The position numbers and the translations under genes were made by a program. Below the pieces are notes generated by a model. The model had not been told where the DNA came from, searched no databases, and saw nothing but the letters and a program-made list of their open reading frames with translations. From Gaiella occulta (GTDB taxonomy: Bacteria > Actinomycetota > Thermoleophilia > Gaiellales > Gaiellaceae): 64,000 nucleotides of DNA. This document shows positions 1,964 to 24,081 of this stretch, piece by piece; the stretch's first letter is position 1; every line of letters begins with the position of its first letter. The DNA is taken from NCBI RefSeq assembly GCF_003351045.1, contig NZ_QQZY01000002.1, positions 494,001 through 558,000 of the forward strand, in the 5' to 3' direction.

Positions 1964-3139
<1,176 letters not shown>

Positions 3140-3212
3140 GCCGGCGGCAGTATAGTCGGGCGGGGACGCGGCTCCGCCGGCGTTTCTCCTGCTCCTCGCC
3201 GTTTCCGCGGCC

Positions 3213-4046
3213 TCAGGCGTAGTCGTAGAAGCCGCGGCCGCTCTTGCGGCCGAGCCGCCCGGCGGCGACGTACTGCCGCAGCAGCGGGCACGGTGCGTAC
3301 TTCGGGTCGCCGAGCCCGTGCTGCAGCACCTCCATGATCGCGACGCAGGTGTCGAGCCCGATCAGGTCGGCGAGCGCGAGCGGGCCCATCGGGTGCGCGA
3401 ACCCGAGCTTCGCGATCGTGTCGATCGCCTCGGCCTCGGCAACACCCTCCATGAGCGCGTAGGCCGCCTCGTTGACGAACGGCATCAGGATGCGGTTCGA
3501 CACGAACCCGGGGTAGTCGTTCGCCTCGGCCGGCACCTTGCCGAGATCGCGTGCGAGCCCGACGACGGCGGCGGCCGTCTCGTCGGAGGTCTGCAGGGCC
3601 CGGATCACCTCGACGAGCTTCAGCACCGGCACCGGGTTGAAGAAGTGCATGCCGATCACCCGCTCCGGCCGCGACGTGACCGCCGCGAGTGAGGTGATGG
3701 GGATCGAGGAGGTGTTCGAGGCGAGGACTGCCTGCGGCGGCAGCACCCCGTCCGCGGCGCGGAACAGCTCCTCCTTGGCGTCCCGATCCTCGACGATCGC
3801 CTCGATCATGAGGTCGGCGGGCGTCAGCGCGTCCACGGGCGTGAGCCGCGCGAGCACCTCGTCCGGCGGCGGGCCACCCTTGTCCGCGAGCTTCTCGAGG
3901 CTCGTGCGGATCGCGCCGAGCCCGCGCTCGACGGCGCCGGGATAGGGGTCGTGCAGCAGCACGTCGCGGCCCGAGGCGGCGACGACCTGAGCGATGCCGG
4001 CGCCCATCTGCCCGGCCCCGACGACGAGAACGCGCTCGAAGCTCAC
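3213..4046 (-). CDS. hbd: 3-hydroxybutyryl-CoA dehydrogenase
   Basis: It interconverts 3-hydroxyacyl-CoA and 3-oxoacyl-CoA with NAD(P). The 277 residues hold an N-terminal Rossmann fold ([13 protein letters not shown]), the catalytic His-containing segment [15 protein letters not shown], and the C-terminal helical domain entered by [16 protein letters not shown]. This is the stand-alone Hbd/PaaH/FadB2 type, not the fused FadB. The GTG start overlaps the stop of the upstream TIMP-like gene (GTGA). A TAGCCT hexamer at 4053-4058, six bases upstream, sits inside that gene, so it may have its own leaderless promoter as well as reading through from the thiolase. Confidence 0.92.
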
Positions 4047-5815: not shown

Positions 5816-6428
5816 CTAGCGGACGAACGACACGTCGAGCGGCAACGCGCGCACGTACGCCTCGGCGAGGCGCGAGGCGGCGTCGACGTCCGACAGCTGC
5901 ACGATCTCGTTCGGGGTGTGCATGGAGCGCAGCGGCACCGAGACGAGGCCGACCGGGGTGCCGGCGAGCGCTTCCTGCACCGCCTCGGAGTCCGACCACG
6001 TGCTGCCCCCGGCTTCGATCGTGTAGCCGATCGCTGCTGCGGCGGCCGCGGCACGCAGGCCCGCGGCGACGGCCGGGTGGATCGTCGGGCCGCGGAAGAC
6101 GGTCGGCCCCGCCCCGAGGCGCGAGTTCCCCCACTCCCCCGCGTCGGTGCCCGGGACGTCGGCCGCAAAGGTGACGTCGAACACGAGCGCCACGCCGACG
6201 TCGAGTCGTAGGTCGGTCCACGCCGGGTCTCCTCTCGTCGGCATGCGCGAAGAGCGCGAGCGTACGCCCGCCCGGGCTGCCGGCGACGCGCGCGATCGTG
6301 TTGCCGTGGACGTCGCTCTCGACCGACGCGAACGCGGCGGCCTCGCGGCGCACGACCGCCATCACGTCCTCCTCGCTCCCCGGCGGCGCCGACGCGCGCA
6401 GGAGCTCGTCGAGGAGCGCGGGGATCAT
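5816..6428 (-). pseudogene. M42 family aminopeptidase with internal deletion and frameshift
   Basis: The start (ATG 6428) and first ~65 residues match the N-terminus of M42 metallo-aminopeptidases/endoglucanase-like proteins, up to the metal-binding LFAHADE. The sequence then jumps into another frame that encodes the family's C-terminal third: ALVFDVTFAADVPG, GPTVFRG, GGSTWSDSEAV and the end motif VPLRSMHTPNE. Normal members have about 340 residues; roughly 150 central residues, including most metal ligands, are missing and the two parts are out of frame. The start overlaps the monooxygenase stop (ATGA), so it was the third gene of that cassette. It is either a decayed gene or an assembly deletion. 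Confidence 0.75.
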
Positions 6429-7657
6429 GCCGCTGCGACCTCGGCGAGGTAGGCGTCGGCCTTCGCGGGATCCATGAACCAGTCGTAGAAGTCCGGCGGG
6501 TTGTCGAAGCCGTTGGCGAAGCGGTGAGCAACGGCGGGGAACTGCCCCGCGGCGCCGAGCACGTTCAAGACGTGCGGCGGCGGCGGCAGCAGGAGTGCGT
6601 TCGTCCAGCCGACGACCTTCCCGGCGTACGCCCACAGCTGCTCGAACGTCTCCTGCATCCACGGCGCGTCGAAGGGGCCGTCGCCCCGCTCGAGGATCCG
6701 CCGCAGGTACACCGCCGCGCCCTTCGAGGCGTTGTTGGAGCCCTGGCCCGTGATCGGGTCGTTGAGGAGCACCGCGTCGGCCATGCCGAGCACGGGGCGA
6801 CCCGACGGCAGCACGCCCACCGGCTTGCGCACGGTCGGCGCGAAGCGCCCGGCGAGGATCCCGTTCGCGTCCGTCAACTCGACCTCCCGGCAGCGGGCCC
6901 CCTCCCACGGCATGAACGTGTCGAGGATCCACTTCGACTTCGCGAGGTGCTGCTCGGGCGTCGTCACGTCGCCCCAGCAGTCCATCGGCCCGCCCGGGAC
7001 ACCCTCGAAGACCATGATCTCGCACGGCCCGCTCGTCGTCAGCGCAGGGAAGACGAAGTACTCCCCCACGCCCGGGACGATGTTGAAGCAGACGGCGGAG
7101 AACTCCGGCCGCGGCGTCATCCCCGTCACGTAGGTGAGCGCGAGGGCGCGCATGGGCCGGTCGAACGGCGAGCGCTGCGGATCCCGTTCGAACAGCCGCG
7201 TGATGTCGCCCTTGCCGGCGGCGACGACCAGGAGATCGCTGTCTGCCGCGTAGCGCTCCATGTCGTCGACGCCTGCGCTGTGGAAGACGAGCTTGCCGCC
7301 GAGCGACTCGAAGTGCTCCATCCAGCGCGGAAACTTGACGCGCTGGTCGACGGACTGCGCCGGCCGGTCGAGCCGCGCGCCCCAGTCGATCGCCTTCTCG
7401 CCGGGCAGCTCCGGATGCGGCACTGCGAGGCCGATGCCCTCGACGGGCGGGCACGTGTCGTCCCAGAAGTCGATCCCGAGCGCGCGCTCGTTGTCGAGGG
7501 CGCTCGCGAACATGCACTGGCTCGAGGTGACGCGGCCGTCGTGAATCTGCTCCGGCGTGCGGTCGGAGACGACCGTGACGTCGTAGCCGTTCCGAACGAG
7601 ACCGATGCCGAGCTGGAGGCCGGACTGGCCGCCCCCCACGATCGTGATCCTCGCCAT
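6425..7657 (-). CDS. StyA-like FAD-dependent monooxygenase
   Basis: The 410-residue protein is a single-domain FAD enzyme of the styrene/indole monooxygenase oxygenase family (group E flavoprotein monooxygenases). Visible are the N-terminal dinucleotide fold ITIVGGGQSGLQLG, the middle LLVVAAGKGD, the flavin-binding DPITGQGSNNASKGA near residue 300, and a C-terminus matching StyA (FANGFDNPPDFYDWF). Such oxygenases use reduced FAD from a separate StyB reductase; none is seen nearby. Start supported by GGAG at 7-10 bases upstream. It lies between an SDR and a peptidase remnant, opposite an AraC regulator. The true substrate is unknown. Confidence 0.8.
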   Translation of the reverse strand: MARITIVGGGQSGLQLGIGLVRNGYDVTVVSDRTPEQIHDGRVTSSQCMFASALDNERALGIDFWDDTCPPVEGIGLAVPHPELPGEKAIDWGARLDRPAQSVDQRVKFPRWMEHFESLGGKLVFHSAGVDDMERYAADSDLLVVAAGKGDITRLFERDPQRSPFDRPMRALALTYVTGMTPRPEFSAVCFNIVPGVGEYFVFPALTTSGPCEIMVFEGVPGGPMDCWGDVTTPEQHLAKSKWILDTFMPWEGARCREVELTDANGILAGRFAPTVRKPVGVLPSGRPVLGMADAVLLNDPITGQGSNNASKGAAVYLRRILERGDGPFDAPWMQETFEQLWAYAGKVVGWTNALLLPPPPHVLNVLGAAGQFPAVAHRFANGFDNPPDFYDWFMDPAKADAYLAEVAAA

Positions 7658-18455: not shown

Positions 18456-19949
18456 TCACACGATCGCGGCGGCGGGCTGCTCGGCGCCGATCGCGGCGAC
18501 GTCCGCCTTGCGGATCGACGCGGCGAGCAGCACGCCGGCGGCGAGGATCAGCAGGCCGGCCGCGAGGAAGGCGTTCTGGAAGCCGTCGACGAGCGCCGCG
18601 GACTGCTGCGCCCGCGACGGCGGGCCGCCGAGGCCGGCGAGCGCACCCGACGTGGTGCCGGCGGCGATCGTCGAGAGGATCGCGAGCCCGAGCGCACCCC
18701 CGACCTGCTGGGAGGTGTTGAAGAGGCCGGACGCGAGGCCGGCGTCTGCCGCGGCGACGTTCGTGGTCGCGAGCAGGGTGACGGGGACGAACGTCAGCCC
18801 CATCCCGACCGACATCAGCATCAGGCCGGGGAACAGGTTCGCGAGATAGCTGCCGTCGACGGGCACGCGGCTGAGCAGGAACAGGCCGGCCGCCGCCGTG
18901 GCGATGCCGCCGAGCGGCACGGCACGCACGCCGAGGCGCGGGATCAGCTGCTGCGACAGGCCCGCGCCGACGACGATGCCCGCGGTGACGGGCAGGAACG
19001 CGACGCCGGCCTCGAGCGGGCTGTAGCCGAGGACGCGCTGCACGTAGAGGGACGCGAAGTAGAACATCGCGAAGAGACCGGCGGCGACCAACATCATCGA
19101 GGCGTTGGACGCGCTGAGCGACCGCGTGCGGAAGATGCCGAGCCGGATCAGCGGCGCCTTGGAGCGGGACTCGATTGCGACGAAGGAGCCGAGCAGGGCG
19201 GCGGCGAGCGCGGCGAGGCCGATCGTCTTCGCGGACGTCCAGCCGTACTCCTGCGCCTTGACGATGCCGAACACGAGCACGAGCAGCCCGGCCGTGACGG
19301 CGACGGCGCCGGCGACATCGACCGTCTCGGGCTTCGTCTCCGCCTTCGTGTTGCGGATGAAGCGCAGCGCGAGAACGATCGCGGCGAGGCCGATCGGCAG
19401 GTTGATGAAGAACACCCAGCGCCACGAGAGCGTGTCGGTGAGGATGCCGCCGAGCAGGAGTCCCACTGCCCCACCGCCGGCCGCGATCGCGCTCCAGATG
19501 CCGAGCGCCTGCGTGCGCTCCTTCCCCTCGGCGAACGTCGTCGTCACGATCGACAGCGCCGCGGGCGAGACGAGCGCCGCGCCGAGGCCCTGCAGCGCCC
19601 GGCCGCCGACGAGGATGCCCGACGAGGTGGCGATGCCGTTGACGAGCGAGGCGGCGGTGAAGAGCGCGACGCCGGCGACGAACAGGCGCTGCCGCCCGAA
19701 CAGGTCGGAGGCGCGGCCGCCCAGGAGCAGGAAGCCTCCGAAGAAGAGCGTGTAGGAGTTCACCACCCACTGCAGGCCGGTGGCGGAGAAGCCGAGCCCG
19801 GACTGGATCGACGGGAGCGCGACGTTCACGATCGTCGCGTCGAGCACCACCATGAACTGCGCCACGCACACGAGCACGAGGATGAGCCAGCGGTTGACGC
19901 CGTGATCCTCGAGCTCCGGCCCTGCCGCCGCCACCGACCCGTTCTGCAC
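18456..19949 (-). CDS. MFS drug efflux transporter, DHA2 (EmrB/QacA) type
   Basis: This 497-residue inner-membrane proton antiporter has about 14 hydrophobic segments. It shows the DHA2 hallmarks: VLDATIVNVALPSIQ in helix 1, the loop motif GGRASDLFGRQR between helices 2 and 3, and motif C-like sequence in helix 5 (AAGGGAVGLLLGGILTD). GTG start with AGAGGAGG upstream. The next gene is its TetR regulator. Likely exports amphipathic drugs or dyes; substrate unknown. Confidence 0.92.
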   Translation of the reverse strand: MQNGSVAAAGPELEDHGVNRWLILVLVCVAQFMVVLDATIVNVALPSIQSGLGFSATGLQWVVNSYTLFFGGFLLLGGRASDLFGRQRLFVAGVALFTAASLVNGIATSSGILVGGRALQGLGAALVSPAALSIVTTTFAEGKERTQALGIWSAIAAGGGAVGLLLGGILTDTLSWRWVFFINLPIGLAAIVLALRFIRNTKAETKPETVDVAGAVAVTAGLLVLVFGIVKAQEYGWTSAKTIGLAALAAALLGSFVAIESRSKAPLIRLGIFRTRSLSASNASMMLVAAGLFAMFYFASLYVQRVLGYSPLEAGVAFLPVTAGIVVGAGLSQQLIPRLGVRAVPLGGIATAAAGLFLLSRVPVDGSYLANLFPGLMLMSVGMGLTFVPVTLLATTNVAAADAGLASGLFNTSQQVGGALGLAILSTIAAGTTSGALAGLGGPPSRAQQSAALVDGFQNAFLAAGLLILAAGVLLAASIRKADVAAIGAEQPAAAIV

Positions 19950-19979: not shown

Positions 19980-20067
19980 CGGATCCTAGCGGAAGCGGAC
20001 GGCACGGTTCGGATGAAGGCGACGGCGCGCCGGGAAGCGGACGGGGGCGGCGCGGACCGGCGCCCGC

Positions 20068-20469
20068 TCACGGCGCCGCCGCGGCGGCGAGGGCGGCGCG
20101 CAGCCAGATCTCGTCGGGCAGGCCGCGCAGACCGTCGCCGGTGCGGTAGACGCGGCAGGAGACGGCGTAGTCGGAGCGCTCCTCGGCGCCGGGCTCGACG
20201 TCGCGCCCGGCGACGAGGATCGTCGGCGATCCGAGGAAGCGCCGCGCGCGCGCCGTCTCGTCGTCCGTGACGTCGATCACGTCGATGCGTGCGTCGACTC
20301 CGGTCTCGCGGGCGACGCGCTCGACGAGCTCGAGGGCGCCGTCCCTGTTCGGACAGCCGTCGAACGAGAGGACCTCGACCAGCGGGCGGCCGTCGGCGGC
20401 CGCCGGCTCGCGTCTGCTCCCGGCCGCCTCGGCTGCCTCCGCGGGCGTGCAGCAGTCGTCGAATCGCAT
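20068..20469 (-). CDS. Thioredoxin-fold protein with CPN motif
   Basis: A 133-residue cytoplasmic protein. After a Cys-Cys near the N-terminus (RFDDCCTP) comes a thioredoxin-like core with VLSFDGCPN (C39), the cis-proline SPT (81-83), and a further Cys at 105 in YAVSCRVYR. This is not a CxxC thioredoxin; it resembles the alkylmercury-lyase-associated thioredoxin-like proteins, a group that from memory has selenocysteine members. The ATG overlaps the ArsR stop (TGATG), and the pair is divergent from the candidate rhodanese selenoprotein, suggesting a shared metal, thiol or selenium role. Confidence 0.75.
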   Translation of the reverse strand: MRFDDCCTPAEAAEAAGSRREPAAADGRPLVEVLSFDGCPNRDGALELVERVARETGVDARIDVIDVTDDETARARRFLGSPTILVAGRDVEPGAEERSDYAVSCRVYRTGDGLRGLPDEIWLRAALAAAAAP

Positions 20470-20849
20470 CAGACTTCCTTCGATGAGCGGGTAGCGGCCG
20501 CGGGGACGCGGCAGCAGGCGGCGACATGCTCCTCGTTGTCGGCGAGGAGCGCGTGCGCGAGCGCGATCAGCTCGTCGACGCGCCCGTCGGCGATGCGGTA
20601 GTGGACGGTGCGGTGCTCGCGGCGGGTGTCGACGAACCCGCACCAGCGCAGGCAGGCGAGGTGGTTCGACACGTTGGGCTGCGAGAGGCCGAGTCGACCG
20701 ACGAGCGCTCCGACCGGGAGCTCGCCCTCGGCGCGCAGCAGCTCGAGGATGCGCAGGCGCGTCGGATCGCCGAGCGCGCGGAAGTACTTCGCCACGAGGT
20801 CCGTCTCGACCGGAGCCTCGGGGAGCCGGAACGGTGCGAGCTGTGTCAT
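20469..20849 (-). CDS. ArsR/SmtB family metal-responsive repressor, CmtR-like
   Basis: A 126-residue winged-helix repressor. The DNA-reading helix reads LGLSQPNVSNHLACLRW, and C66 and C70 (CLRWC) sit in that helix as in CmtR of Mycobacterium, the Cd/Pb sensor, with a Cys pair C112-C113 near the C-terminus supplying the third ligand. These three positions match the CmtR metal site as I know it. GGAG is spaced well before the ATG. It is the first gene of an operon with a thioredoxin-like protein and is divergent from the rhodanese-CBS gene; it likely controls both. Confidence 0.82.
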   Translation of the reverse strand: MTQLAPFRLPEAPVETDLVAKYFRALGDPTRLRILELLRAEGELPVGALVGRLGLSQPNVSNHLACLRWCGFVDTRREHRTVHYRIADGRVDELIALAHALLADNEEHVAACCRVPAAATRSSKEV

Positions 20850-20870
20850 ATTTACTCCTTCTGTTATCAG

Positions 20871-20881
20871 GCTAGAGTAGC
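20871..20881. promoter_or_regulatory. Candidate ArsR operator
   Basis: GCTA-GAG-TAGC is a small dyad in the 64-bp gap between the divergent arsR and rhodanese genes. It is flanked by GTTA (20864-20867) and TAAC (20883-20886), which gives a wider imperfect inverted repeat. This is the only dyad seen in that gap. Confidence 0.35.
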
Positions 20882-20913
20882 GTAACGGTGAAAGGCGACC
20901 GAAGGGAGACGCG

Positions 20914-21600
20914 ATGCCGGCGATCATCGACCACAGCGCGCTGCAGGAGCTCAGCGCCCGCGGCGCGCAGCTCGTGGAGGTGCTGCCCGCCGGCGAGTAC
21001 GCCGAGATGCACCTGCCGGGCGCCGTCAGCCTGCCGCTCAAGGAGCTGAACGCCGACGGCGCTCGACGGCTCGACCCGGCCAGACCGGTGATCGTCTACT
21101 GCTGGGACTACCAGTGAGACCTGAGCCCGCGGGCCGCGTGGCGGCTCGAGAGCCTCGGCTTCACCCGCGTCTACGACTTCGCCGCCGGCAAGGCGGCGTG
21201 GCTCGCCCTCGGTCTCCCGGTCGAGGGCGTCGAGGCGGACGCTCCGCGCGCCGGCGCCCACGCACGCGCGGACGTCCCGACCTGCCGCCTCGACGAGCCG
21301 CTGCGCTCGGTGCGCGAGCGTGTCCGCGCCGCCGGCTGGGACACCTGCGTCGTCGTCAACGAGCAGCGCGTCGTGCTCGGCCGCCTCGGGCGCGCCGCCC
21401 TCGACCGTGACGACGACATCGCCGTCGAGGACGCGATGAGCGAGGGGCCGAGCACGATCCGTCCGGACACACCGCTCGAGACGATCGCGCGGCGGCTCCG
21501 CGAGCAGCGCCTCGCCACCGCGCTCGTGACGAGGCTCGACGGCACGCTCGTCGGGCTGCTCCGGCTCGTCGACGCCGAGCGCGCGCTCGCGCGCGGCTGA
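20914..21600 (+). CDS. Rhodanese-CBS protein, probable selenoprotein (in-frame UGA at codon 68)
   Basis: One reading frame runs from ATG 20914 (GGGAG upstream) to the TGA at 21598-21600, broken only by TGA at 21115-21117. Before it lies a rhodanese N-terminal half (VEVLPAGEYAEMHLPGAVS, VIVYCWDYQ); directly after it, in the same frame, comes DLSPRAAWRLESLGF, VYDFAAGKAAWLALGLP and then two CBS motifs to residue 228. The TGA falls within the rhodanese active-site loop, five residues after the conserved Cys, and is followed by a hairpin that fits a bacterial SECIS. Sec at position 68 is therefore likely. The alternative is a nonsense mutation or a sequencing error. It probably handles reactive sulfur, selenium or metal-thiol chemistry under the divergent ArsR. 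Confidence 0.7.
21130..21148 (+). promoter_or_regulatory. SECIS-like hairpin after the in-frame UGA
   Basis: Stem CGGGCCGC / GCGGCUCG (8 bp, one G-U) with a 3-base loop GUG whose first base is G. The loop begins 21 bases after the UGA (20 bases lie between). Bacterial SECIS elements are stem-loops within the coding region with a small G-bearing apical loop about 16-37 bases after the UGA, so position and form both fit. High GC makes chance hairpins common, so this alone is not proof. Confidence 0.55.
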
Positions 21601-21804
21601 GCGCATCCCGGAGGCGTCGCGCAGCCCCGGCCGAGGCGAAGGCGCGCGCCGACGCTCGTCACCGGCGCGGAGGCCGCGCGCAAGCAGGCGACGCTCGCGC
21701 TCGTCCGCCGCAGCGAGCGATCGTCGGCTAGGGTGGGCGAGAACCGGCTGTGCTGACGCTTCGCCGTCGCGCCGGACACGCTACGGAAGGGACGCGGGCA
21801 GGCC

Positions 21805-24081
21805 GTGCGCACCGCGATCGTCTCGACCTACCCACCGCGCGCCTGCGGAATCGGGACGTTCGCGGCCGACGTGCGCGCGGCGCTCCTCGGCGTGGACGGA
21901 ATCGACCGCGTCGAGAAGGTCGTGGTCGTCAACGAGCCGTCGCGTCCGCAGCGACCGGGGCTCGTTGCGACGATCGCCCAGGCGGTCCGCGGCGACTACG
22001 TCCGCGCGGCGCGGATCCTGGCAAGGCTGGACGTCGACGTCGTCCTGCTCCAGCACGAGTACGGGATCTTTGGAGGCGTCGACGGCCGCTACGTGGTCTC
22101 GCTGGCGGAGGAGCTCTCGCAGCCGCTCGTCGTGACGCTGCACACGGTCCTGTCGGAGCCGACGGCTCATCAGGCCGAGGTGCTCGCCGCGCTGTGCCGT
22201 CAGGCCGAGAGGGTGATCGTGATGACCGAGACCGCGCGGCGTCTGCTCGTCGAGAGCGATGCGTGCGCGGCGGAGAAGATTCGAGTCGTTCCGCACGGGG
22301 CGCCGACGGTGCTCGCCCGGCGTGCCGCGGAGTATGCCGTCGAACGCGCTGGCGCAGACGGCGCGTCGACGCGGGGGACATACGACGCCGCGGGGGAGCG
22401 CTTCCTGCTCTCGACGTTCGGGCTGCTCTCGGCCGGGAAGGGACTCGAGACGGTGATCGAGGCGCTGCCGTCGATCGTCGAGCGTCATCCGGAGGTGCTG
22501 TACGTGGTCGCCGGACGGACGCATCCGGACGTGACGCACCGCGAGGGAGAGCGGTACCGGCTGACGCTCGAGCAGGCGGTGCTCGACCTCGGGCTCGAGA
22601 ACCATGTCGAGTTCGACGACCGCTTTCTGACGGTCGAGGAGATCGCCGACCTGCTCGCGGCGACCGACGTCTTCGTCACGCCGTACAGGGGGCGTGAGCA
22701 GATCACCTCGGGAGCGCTCACGTTCGGCATCGCCGCCGGTTGCGGAGTCGTCTCGACGCCGTACTGGTACGCGCGGGACATGCTCGCGTCGGGGGCCGGC
22801 GAGATCGTCCCGTTCGCCGACCCTGCGGCGCTCGCCGACGCCGTCTGCCGCTACATCGAAGAGCCGGAGCGGCTCGCCGCGGCCCGCGCCGAGGCGCGGA
22901 GGATCGGCGCCCGACTGGCCTGGCCGTCGGTCGCGGAGGCGACCGCGTCGGTGCTGCGCGAGGCCGTCCAGCTGGCGCCGCGCCGGCGCTCGCTCGCCCG
23001 CCTCGACCCGCGGCTCGTGAGCATGCGAAGGGACCACCTGCTCACGCTCGTCGACGACGTGGGCATCGTGCAGCATGCGAACGGCGTGATCCCGAGCCGC
23101 GAGAGCGGCTACTGCGTCGACGACGTCGCGCGGCTCGCAGTCGTCGCGCTCGAGCTCGCCCGCCGCGGCGACGAGCAGGTCTGGACGTCCATCGTCTACC
23201 GCTCGCTCGCCTTCCTCCAGGACGCGACCGACCCGCAGACGGGGATGCGGAACTTCATGGGCTACGACCGGCGCTGGCTCGACGACCCTCATGTCGGCGA
23301 CCACGTCGGCCGCTCCGTCTGGGCGCTGGGCGAGATCCTCTCGACGGCATGGGTGCCCGCCGTGGTCGGGCCCACGCGCCGGTTGCTCGATGCGATCGTC
23401 GGCACGCTCGGGCCGGAGACGTCGCTGCGCACCGGCGCGTACGCCGTGCTCGGACTGGCCCGGCTCGACCCCGACCGGCTCCAGCCGGCGGCCCTGCTGC
23501 TGCTCGAGCGGGTCGTCGACCAGCTCGCCGAGGCGTACGAGACGCACGCCTCCGTGGAGTGGCGCTGGTTCGAGGACGCGCTCGGCTACGACAACGCGCG
23601 ACTCCCGCACGCGCTGATCGTCGGCGGCGCCGCGCTCGACCGCGACGATCTGACGGAGACGGGCCTGGATGCGCTTCGCTGGCTCGGCGACGAGTCGGGA
23701 CTCGCCGAGGGGACGCTGCGGCTGACCGGCCATCACGGCCGCCGTCGCACCGAACCGGCTCCCGGCGGCGGGGACGAGCAGCCGCTCGACGCCTCCGCCT
23801 TCGTCTCGGCGGAGCTGGCGGCGTTCTCCGTCACCGGCGATCCGGAGCACGCGATGCGCGCACAGCGAGCCTTCGATTGGTTCCTCGGCCGCAACCGCCT
23901 CCACCTGCCGCTGTACGACTTCGCAACCGGCGGCTGCAGCGACGGACTGGGAGAGGAAGCGACCAACGACAACCAGGGGGCCGAGTCGACGCTCGCGCTC
24001 CACCGGGCGGCGCTGCTGCTCGACGCGGCCGGGCTGCCGGCCGTCCTCCGCCAGCGCACGCGCGCGGCGGCGACGGCGTGA
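21805..24081 (+). CDS. GT4 glycosyltransferase fused to an alpha/alpha-toroid domain
   Basis: A 758-residue protein. Residues 1-395 are a GT-B fold family 4 transferase: TAIVSTYPPRACGIGTFA at the start, QHEYGIFGG, VVPHG, LLSAGKGLETVIEAL, and a C-terminal donor site around TPYRGREQITSGAL. Residues 410-750 are helical with repeated motifs (SGYCVDDVARLAVVALELA, VEWRWFEDALGYDNARLPHA) typical of (alpha/alpha)6 toroids of sugar epimerases and six-hairpin glycosidases. It is followed by a GH130 phosphorylase, and such pairs are known to build or break beta-mannosides, so the product is probably a mannose-containing glycoside. GTG start; no clear RBS. Confidence 0.85.
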   Translation: MRTAIVSTYPPRACGIGTFAADVRAALLGVDGIDRVEKVVVVNEPSRPQRPGLVATIAQAVRGDYVRAARILARLDVDVVLLQHEYGIFGGVDGRYVVSLAEELSQPLVVTLHTVLSEPTAHQAEVLAALCRQAERVIVMTETARRLLVESDACAAEKIRVVPHGAPTVLARRAAEYAVERAGADGASTRGTYDAAGERFLLSTFGLLSAGKGLETVIEALPSIVERHPEVLYVVAGRTHPDVTHREGERYRLTLEQAVLDLGLENHVEFDDRFLTVEEIADLLAATDVFVTPYRGREQITSGALTFGIAAGCGVVSTPYWYARDMLASGAGEIVPFADPAALADAVCRYIEEPERLAAARAEARRIGARLAWPSVAEATASVLREAVQLAPRRRSLARLDPRLVSMRRDHLLTLVDDVGIVQHANGVIPSRESGYCVDDVARLAVVALELARRGDEQVWTSIVYRSLAFLQDATDPQTGMRNFMGYDRRWLDDPHVGDHVGRSVWALGEILSTAWVPAVVGPTRRLLDAIVGTLGPETSLRTGAYAVLGLARLDPDRLQPAALLLLERVVDQLAEAYETHASVEWRWFEDALGYDNARLPHALIVGGAALDRDDLTETGLDALRWLGDESGLAEGTLRLTGHHGRRRTEPAPGGGDEQPLDASAFVSAELAAFSVTGDPEHAMRAQRAFDWFLGRNRLHLPLYDFATGGCSDGLGEEATNDNQGAESTLALHRAALLLDAAGLPAVLRQRTRAAATA

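Follow-up and report, generated by a model that had tools for sequence, protein, structure and literature searches.

A predicted selenoprotein subfamily joining rhodanese and CBS domains, with a conserved in-frame UGA and SECIS hairpin, in Gaiella occulta and other Actinomycetota

Organization of the locus

The window (the whole stretch of Gaiella occulta DNA that was analysed, 64,000 nucleotides) was found to carry on its plus strand a reading frame (20914-21600) interrupted once, by an in-frame TGA at codon 68 between the sequences VYCWDYQ and DLSPRAAW, and with a further TGA as its terminal stop (21598-21600). Two genes on the minus strand are divergent from it. The features of the locus are as follows.

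20914-21600, plus strand: rhodanese-CBS selenoprotein gene, predicted to encode 228 residues with selenocysteine (Sec) at codon 68, on the basis of homologues, Pfam and AlphaFold2
20914-21210, plus strand: rhodanese domain (PF00581; among solved structures closest to BH2092, 3nhv, both in sequence and in fold)
21100-21102, plus strand: TGC, Cys63, the rhodanese catalytic-cysteine position, forming C-x4-U with Sec68; invariant in a 42-row protein alignment
21115-21117, plus strand: TGA codon predicted to be read as selenocysteine (Sec68); TGA in 81 of 81 TGA-type genes, window included
21130-21137 paired with 21141-21148, plus strand: putative bacterial SECIS hairpin with an 8-bp stem, apical loop GUG at 21138-21140, 20 nt after the UGA
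21260-21597, plus strand: CBS pair, the second CBS from Pfam PF00571, the first inferred from fold and sequence
20469-20849, minus strand: ArsR/SmtB metalloregulator with CmtR-like cysteines (CLRWC, HVAACC), divergent (NF033788, 95.1 bits, cut-off 55)
20068-20469, minus strand: DF-family (seleno)protein in a Cys form (SFDGCPN), its start overlapping the arsR stop (NF049942, 112.8 bits, cut-off 70)

An earlier note on this DNA had described the divergent genes as a CmtR-like, Cys-rich sensor and a CPN thioredoxin-fold protein from a fold with Sec members. The second description agrees with the match to NF049942, which is named DF family (seleno)protein. The first also holds, CmtR being the best specific relative of the ArsR protein, though membership of CmtR itself was rejected at 70 bits against a cut-off of 150. 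The DNA between arsR and the rhodanese-CBS gene showed no inverted repeat resembling an ArsR operator. Past the arsR-DF pair lies a DHA2-family MFS efflux permease (18456-19949, minus strand; TIGR00711, 258.7 bits, cut-off 230.2), with a TetR-like gene after it; the permease does not recur at other loci.

Domains and predicted structure

When codon 68 was read as Cys, Pfam returned one rhodanese domain (PF00581, residues 10-98; 47.4 bits, cut-off 22.2) and a CBS match at residues 171-225 (PF00571). The rhodanese match runs across the TGA, in agreement with the earlier reading of the halves on either side as one in-frame sequence, and the score above gathering together with the invariant Cys63 places the protein in the rhodanese superfamily. 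The AlphaFold2 model, built from 42 aligned homologues (three rows from plasmid records being left out of the input alignment), is one continuous and confident protein through the Sec site, with a mean pLDDT of 96.6. The solved structures closest to this model in a Foldseek search were BH2092 (3nhv) over the rhodanese domain and CBS pairs over the remainder, the latter matches spanning about 120-130 columns.

From what is established for the family, Cys63 stands at the catalytic-Cys site of the rhodanese loop. In the model, Sec68 lies within the same loop, directly before a helix that starts at residue 70. It stands five residues past the catalytic-Cys position and corresponds to the second Cys of the CxxxxC loop in BH2092-like single-domain relatives. 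The TGA had been placed in an active-site loop where relatives carry Cys, which is correct as regards the relatives (BH2092 and three full-length proteins); the catalytic-Cys position itself is that of Cys63 and not of residue 68.

Homologues and conservation of the UGA codon

Of 397 genomes sampled from the phylum, 40 have a strong homologue (E <= 1e-40), nearly all with exactly one TGA. Further homologues were added from a class sample (399 genomes), from a scan of GTDB contigs (two MAGs with a Chloroflexi label and one from Pseudonocardia) and from a plasmid collection (Rubrobacter marinus, two Pseudonocardia and one Nonomuraea record). Phage records contained none. After removal of a duplicate Rubrobacter record (L053, the same as L141) and of a gene from another subfamily (L105), 81 TGA genes were counted, window included. 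The TGA thus occurs at the aligned codon in 80 further genes, from many Actinomycetota families and from Chloroflexi-labelled MAGs, and the residues around it are nearly invariant (YC-x-D-x-x-U-D-[LM]-S-P-R-A-A). Since independent assemblies share the TGA, sequencing error or a pseudogene was rejected as its source, and the TGC or TGG that corrected reads might have revealed is not borne out.

Cys was found at the site in three full-length rhodanese-CBS proteins (L125 in G609, L135 in G651, and L144 in Nonomuraea gerenzanensis) and in the single-domain relatives, BH2092 included. It had been proposed that homologues be examined for Cys or TGA at codon 68, and this is what they carry. In a maximum-likelihood tree with the Sec site masked, the three Cys forms fell at three separate positions; two of them have a TGA gene as their strongly supported partner, L136 for L125 and L085 for L144. 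In one genome that also has a TGA copy, a paralogue (L091, G059:C20:12000-15700) carries Ser (TCA) at the site and lacks the hairpin. Comparison of the homologues shows UGA68 behaving as a conserved sense codon, for which the full-length alternatives are Cys and, in the one paralogue, Ser.

Two further sequences deserve mention. The Pseudonocardia oceani copy (L012, NZ_JADQDF010000001.1, match 3001-3647) has a one-base deletion right at the Sec codon which shifts the frame; selA is present in this genome and selB is borderline, and the copy is either decaying or a sequencing error. L105 (G131:C110:17900-19135) is near a 110-residue single-domain rhodanese and has a TGA between YCMNTM and PASEEAARE where its relatives L100 and L110 carry Cys. 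About 21 nt past this TGA, a 7-bp stem with the loop CGUGAGCU was seen by eye, and selA is present in the genome; L105 is likely to be a second Sec rhodanese, of another subfamily.

The SECIS hairpin

A hairpin with a three-base loop starting with G had been predicted from the sequence of the window, and its GUG loop indeed begins at the 21st base past the UGA. The published criteria for bacterial SECIS elements are a loop of 3-9 nt with G and then G or U in its first two positions, a stem of 4-16 bp, a spacing of 16-37 nt and a minimum free energy <= -7.5 (PMC13188914). The hairpin of the window lies within all of these limits (3-nt GUG loop, 8 bp, 20 nt, -14.4 kcal/mol). An Rfam scan of 20000-22500 gave no relevant match.

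The TGA genes have in common a hairpin CGRGCCGC-GUG-GCGGCUCG, lying 13 to 31 nt past the UGA. Among 73 distinct sequences, 95% of cells in the stem are paired, compared with 23-57% after a shift of the partner strand by one to three columns, and six of these sequences have a compensatory double change from C-G to U-A at one stem pair. The closing pair is missing in 24 sequences, resulting in a 5-nt loop (CGUGC or CGUGU) in which G is still second and is followed by U; a loop G followed by U or G was found in every complete sequence of the subfamily.

Folding of the 46-nt stretch as a single sequence was not significant against shuffles (z -0.49), as expected in a GC-rich genome, so that the hairpin by itself is weak evidence. 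Comparison across homologues makes it strong. When codons were redrawn synonymously from the family's own usage, 7.6 of 8 pairs were observed against 5.4 expected, with energies of -13.6 against -8.1 kcal/mol (mean z -2.2); for the hairpin of the window, at the energy given above, z was -2.3. Codons of the stem are frozen, with Ala as GCG in 48/48 and Leu as CTC in 48/48, while a conserved Gly six codons past the Trp uses all four of its codons. These comparisons show that the hairpin is under selection, its conservation exceeding what the encoded residues and codon usage account for.

In the Cys forms L125 and L135 the hairpin is broken, with 4/8 and 5/8 pairs respectively. The Nonomuraea gerenzanensis Cys form (L144, NZ_LT559118.1, match 6001-6651) has a remnant of the stem and has lost the GUG loop. 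Judged from this pattern, the remnant is a fossil SECIS left after a change from Sec to Cys; SECIS remnants have been described for other conversions of this kind (PMC1794560).

Selenium machinery

A search for selA, selB, selC and selD had been named as a check, and all four were detected above their cut-offs in the genome of the window (3.03 Mb, 97.9% complete). selA (C1:307019-308293, 515.9 bits) overlaps selB (329.5 bits), the tRNA-Sec gene selC with anticodon UCA (64.6 bits) lies 1.5 kb beyond the pair, and selD (355.7 bits) is elsewhere in the genome. The FdhA gene (L186; G000:C3:72533-74401) has an in-frame TGA between NRT and HAPS, at the known UHxP motif, and the genome therefore uses Sec elsewhere. 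Automatic annotation would probably split this FdhA as well.

In the phylum sample, selB was above threshold in 33 of the 40 genomes with the TGA gene, compared with 171 of the 357 without it (Fisher p = 2e-5), and tRNA-Sec was found in two more TGA-gene genomes. In the class sample, selA was found in most TGA genomes and was not found in two genomes with Cys forms (L125 and L135). Neither selA nor selB/tRNA-Sec was found above threshold in G330, G689, G179, G201, G257, G346, G700, G602, G598 and G755, nor in the MAGs of L010 and L011, despite the TGA gene. These genomes are mostly fragmented, G330 (96% complete) and G201 (94%) not obviously so, and all are MAGs, for which absence is no proof. 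G330 and G689 belong to one genus, and their genes (L081 on G330:C280 and L132 on G689:C12) have the TGA and an intact hairpin with selA found in neither genome; selB and tRNA-Sec were also not found in G330.

Decoding of the UGA codon

Taken together, these comparisons of sequence leave very little doubt that the product of the gene is a selenoprotein and represents a new rhodanese-CBS subfamily. By the established route of Sec insertion, SelB carrying Sec-tRNA would recognise the mRNA hairpin and insert Sec at the UGA, yielding the 228-residue protein rather than a 67-residue fragment.

It is most improbable that the TGA is instead decoded as Cys, Trp or another standard residue through a suppressor tRNA or a local change of the code. 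Cys is an alternative residue at the site, and decoding by suppressors and by tRNA-Cys(UCA) is known in other systems. However, the genome has a canonical tRNA-Sec(UCA) with selA, selB and selD and a TGA at the Sec site of FdhA, TGA terminates both the rhodanese-CBS gene and arsR, and the conserved SECIS 3' of the codon is lost in the Cys forms. The chance that the TGA is an ordinary stop, in a pseudogene or between a rhodanese fragment and an internally started CBS protein, is negligible: RefSeq does annotate the Pseudonocardia plasmid copies (P. autotrophica and P. broussonetiae) as two CDS joined at the TGA, and in Rubrobacter marinus it lists the CBS protein alone, but apart from the shared TGA the 81 genes are free of stops and frame breaks, the sequence that follows it starts with DxSPRAA, where the family is most conserved, the ATG annotated as a restart is missing in 20 of 48 genes (CTC, CTG, TTG or ATC instead) and in the window (CTG), and a stop here would cut the rhodanese fold in its active loop.

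Relation to known rhodanese selenoproteins

Selenoprotein rhodaneses are already known. A 2026 inventory of 119 selenoprotein families has five rhodanese forms, with the motifs UxxS, UxxG, CxU, UxxG and UxxxxU (PMC13188914, Table 1); no CxxxxU rhodanese and none with CBS domains is among its 119 families. In forms 1, 2 and 4 of the same table (UxxS, UxxG), which likewise combine a rhodanese domain with Sec, the motif suggests that Sec replaces the first, catalytic Cys, whereas the protein of the window keeps Cys63 and has Sec second. Form 3, the rhodanese-related (seleno)protein LYCAU (NF041203), also has Cys and then Sec in a rhodanese domain, but with CxU spacing and no CBS, in contrast to CxxxxU and CBS; the protein scored 18.5 bits against a cut-off of 115 for NF041203. 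Form 5, TsoB (NF045694, UxxxxU), is a rhodanese/DsbD fusion-like protein which resembles it in having two chalcogen residues five apart in the rhodanese loop. In TsoB both positions are Sec and a DsbD-like part is present, whereas the protein of the window has Cys, then a single Sec, and a CBS pair; it scored 25.1 bits for NF045694, where the cut-off is 805.

The best match by sequence and fold, BH2092 (PDB 3nhv; 32% identity, 1.5 A over 107 columns), and the other single-domain CxxxxC rhodaneses differ in having Cys at the Sec position and no CBS domains. No NCBIfam 20.0 model was above its cut-off for the rhodanese-CBS protein, and literature searches on rhodanese with CBS domain and selenoprotein or selenium gave no description of it. 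The CxxxxU position of Sec together with the CBS architecture is a new subfamily, undescribed in the sources available here. The DF family (NF049942), for which one Sec member is known (PMC12013277), is a separate small thioredoxin-fold-like protein found at about a quarter of the loci.

Genomic neighbourhood and distribution

No close neighbour is commoner than the DF protein, which lies within 1.5 kb at 20 of 82 loci and was found at 14 of the 48 loci with longer flanks; ArsR homologues adjoin 15 of the 82 loci. Among the 48 loci with long flanks, MerB (PF03243) was found at four, MerA (TIGR02053, 569 bits) at five and MerR at five. DF, MerA or MerB occurs at 35 loci overall, some of them counted twice in two sizes. 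The mercury link is partial, as the examined stretch has no DF, MerA or MerB gene at 47 of 82 loci, and no mer genes were found alongside the copy in the window. On the mobilisable plasmid pPA12743CP (P. autotrophica), a MerR-type regulator, an alkylmercury lyase, a DF protein, the rhodanese-CBS protein (annotated as two genes joined at the TGA) and an MFS transporter follow one another in this order. At one locus (L149, G115:C18) the rhodanese-CBS gene has selA about 3.3 kb downstream.

The gene is missing from six other genomes of the same genus. This, along with the plasmid copies and the mixed tree, suggests horizontal transfer.

Possible role of the protein

The protein may act as a redox rhodanese, with persulfide/selenenylsulfide chemistry, or as a Cys/Sec trap for thiophilic metals, its thiol/selenol pair handling persulfides or mercury. 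In such a scheme, the least certain part of the whole account, Cys63, at the rhodanese nucleophile position, would take up a sulfane-sulfur, oxidised or metal (e.g., mercury) adduct. The selenol of Sec68 would then resolve or co-bind the adduct, giving a selenenylsulfide whose reductant could be thioredoxin or the thioredoxin-like DF-family protein encoded nearby. The CBS pair may sense an adenosine ligand, and the presence of a divergent ArsR regulator suggests that a thiophilic metal acts as inducer.

There is nearly an even chance that the selenoprotein serves not in defence against metals or mercury but in the transfer of sulfur or selenium (e.g., to SelD) or in the reduction of persulfides generally. 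The rhodanese fold keeps its catalytic Cys position, most loci are without nearby mer genes, selA lies close to the gene in G115, and delivery of selenium to SelD by a rhodanese has been proposed in general. However, the recurrent neighbours are metal sensors, MerA, MerB and the DF family, and not genes of sulfur or selenium assimilation. It is offered more tentatively, as an idea somewhat less probable than such transfer, that the CxxxxU rhodanese and its CBS sensor handle mercury or organomercurial adducts, or opposing persulfides, with the DF partner, as a selenium-dependent branch of metal resistance.

Significance

The rhodanese-CBS proteins appear to form a widespread selenoprotein subfamily, present in about a tenth of the sampled genomes of the phylum, which annotation truncates or splits and which is absent from the curated families tested here. 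Sec would enter the rhodanese at its second position and not at the catalytic one. As Sec and Cys have been exchanged on three separate occasions, the advantage of selenium is testable in this subfamily. Its association with metal sensors, with MerA and MerB and with another potential selenoprotein family suggests that thiophilic metals are countered here by a selenium-dependent defence.
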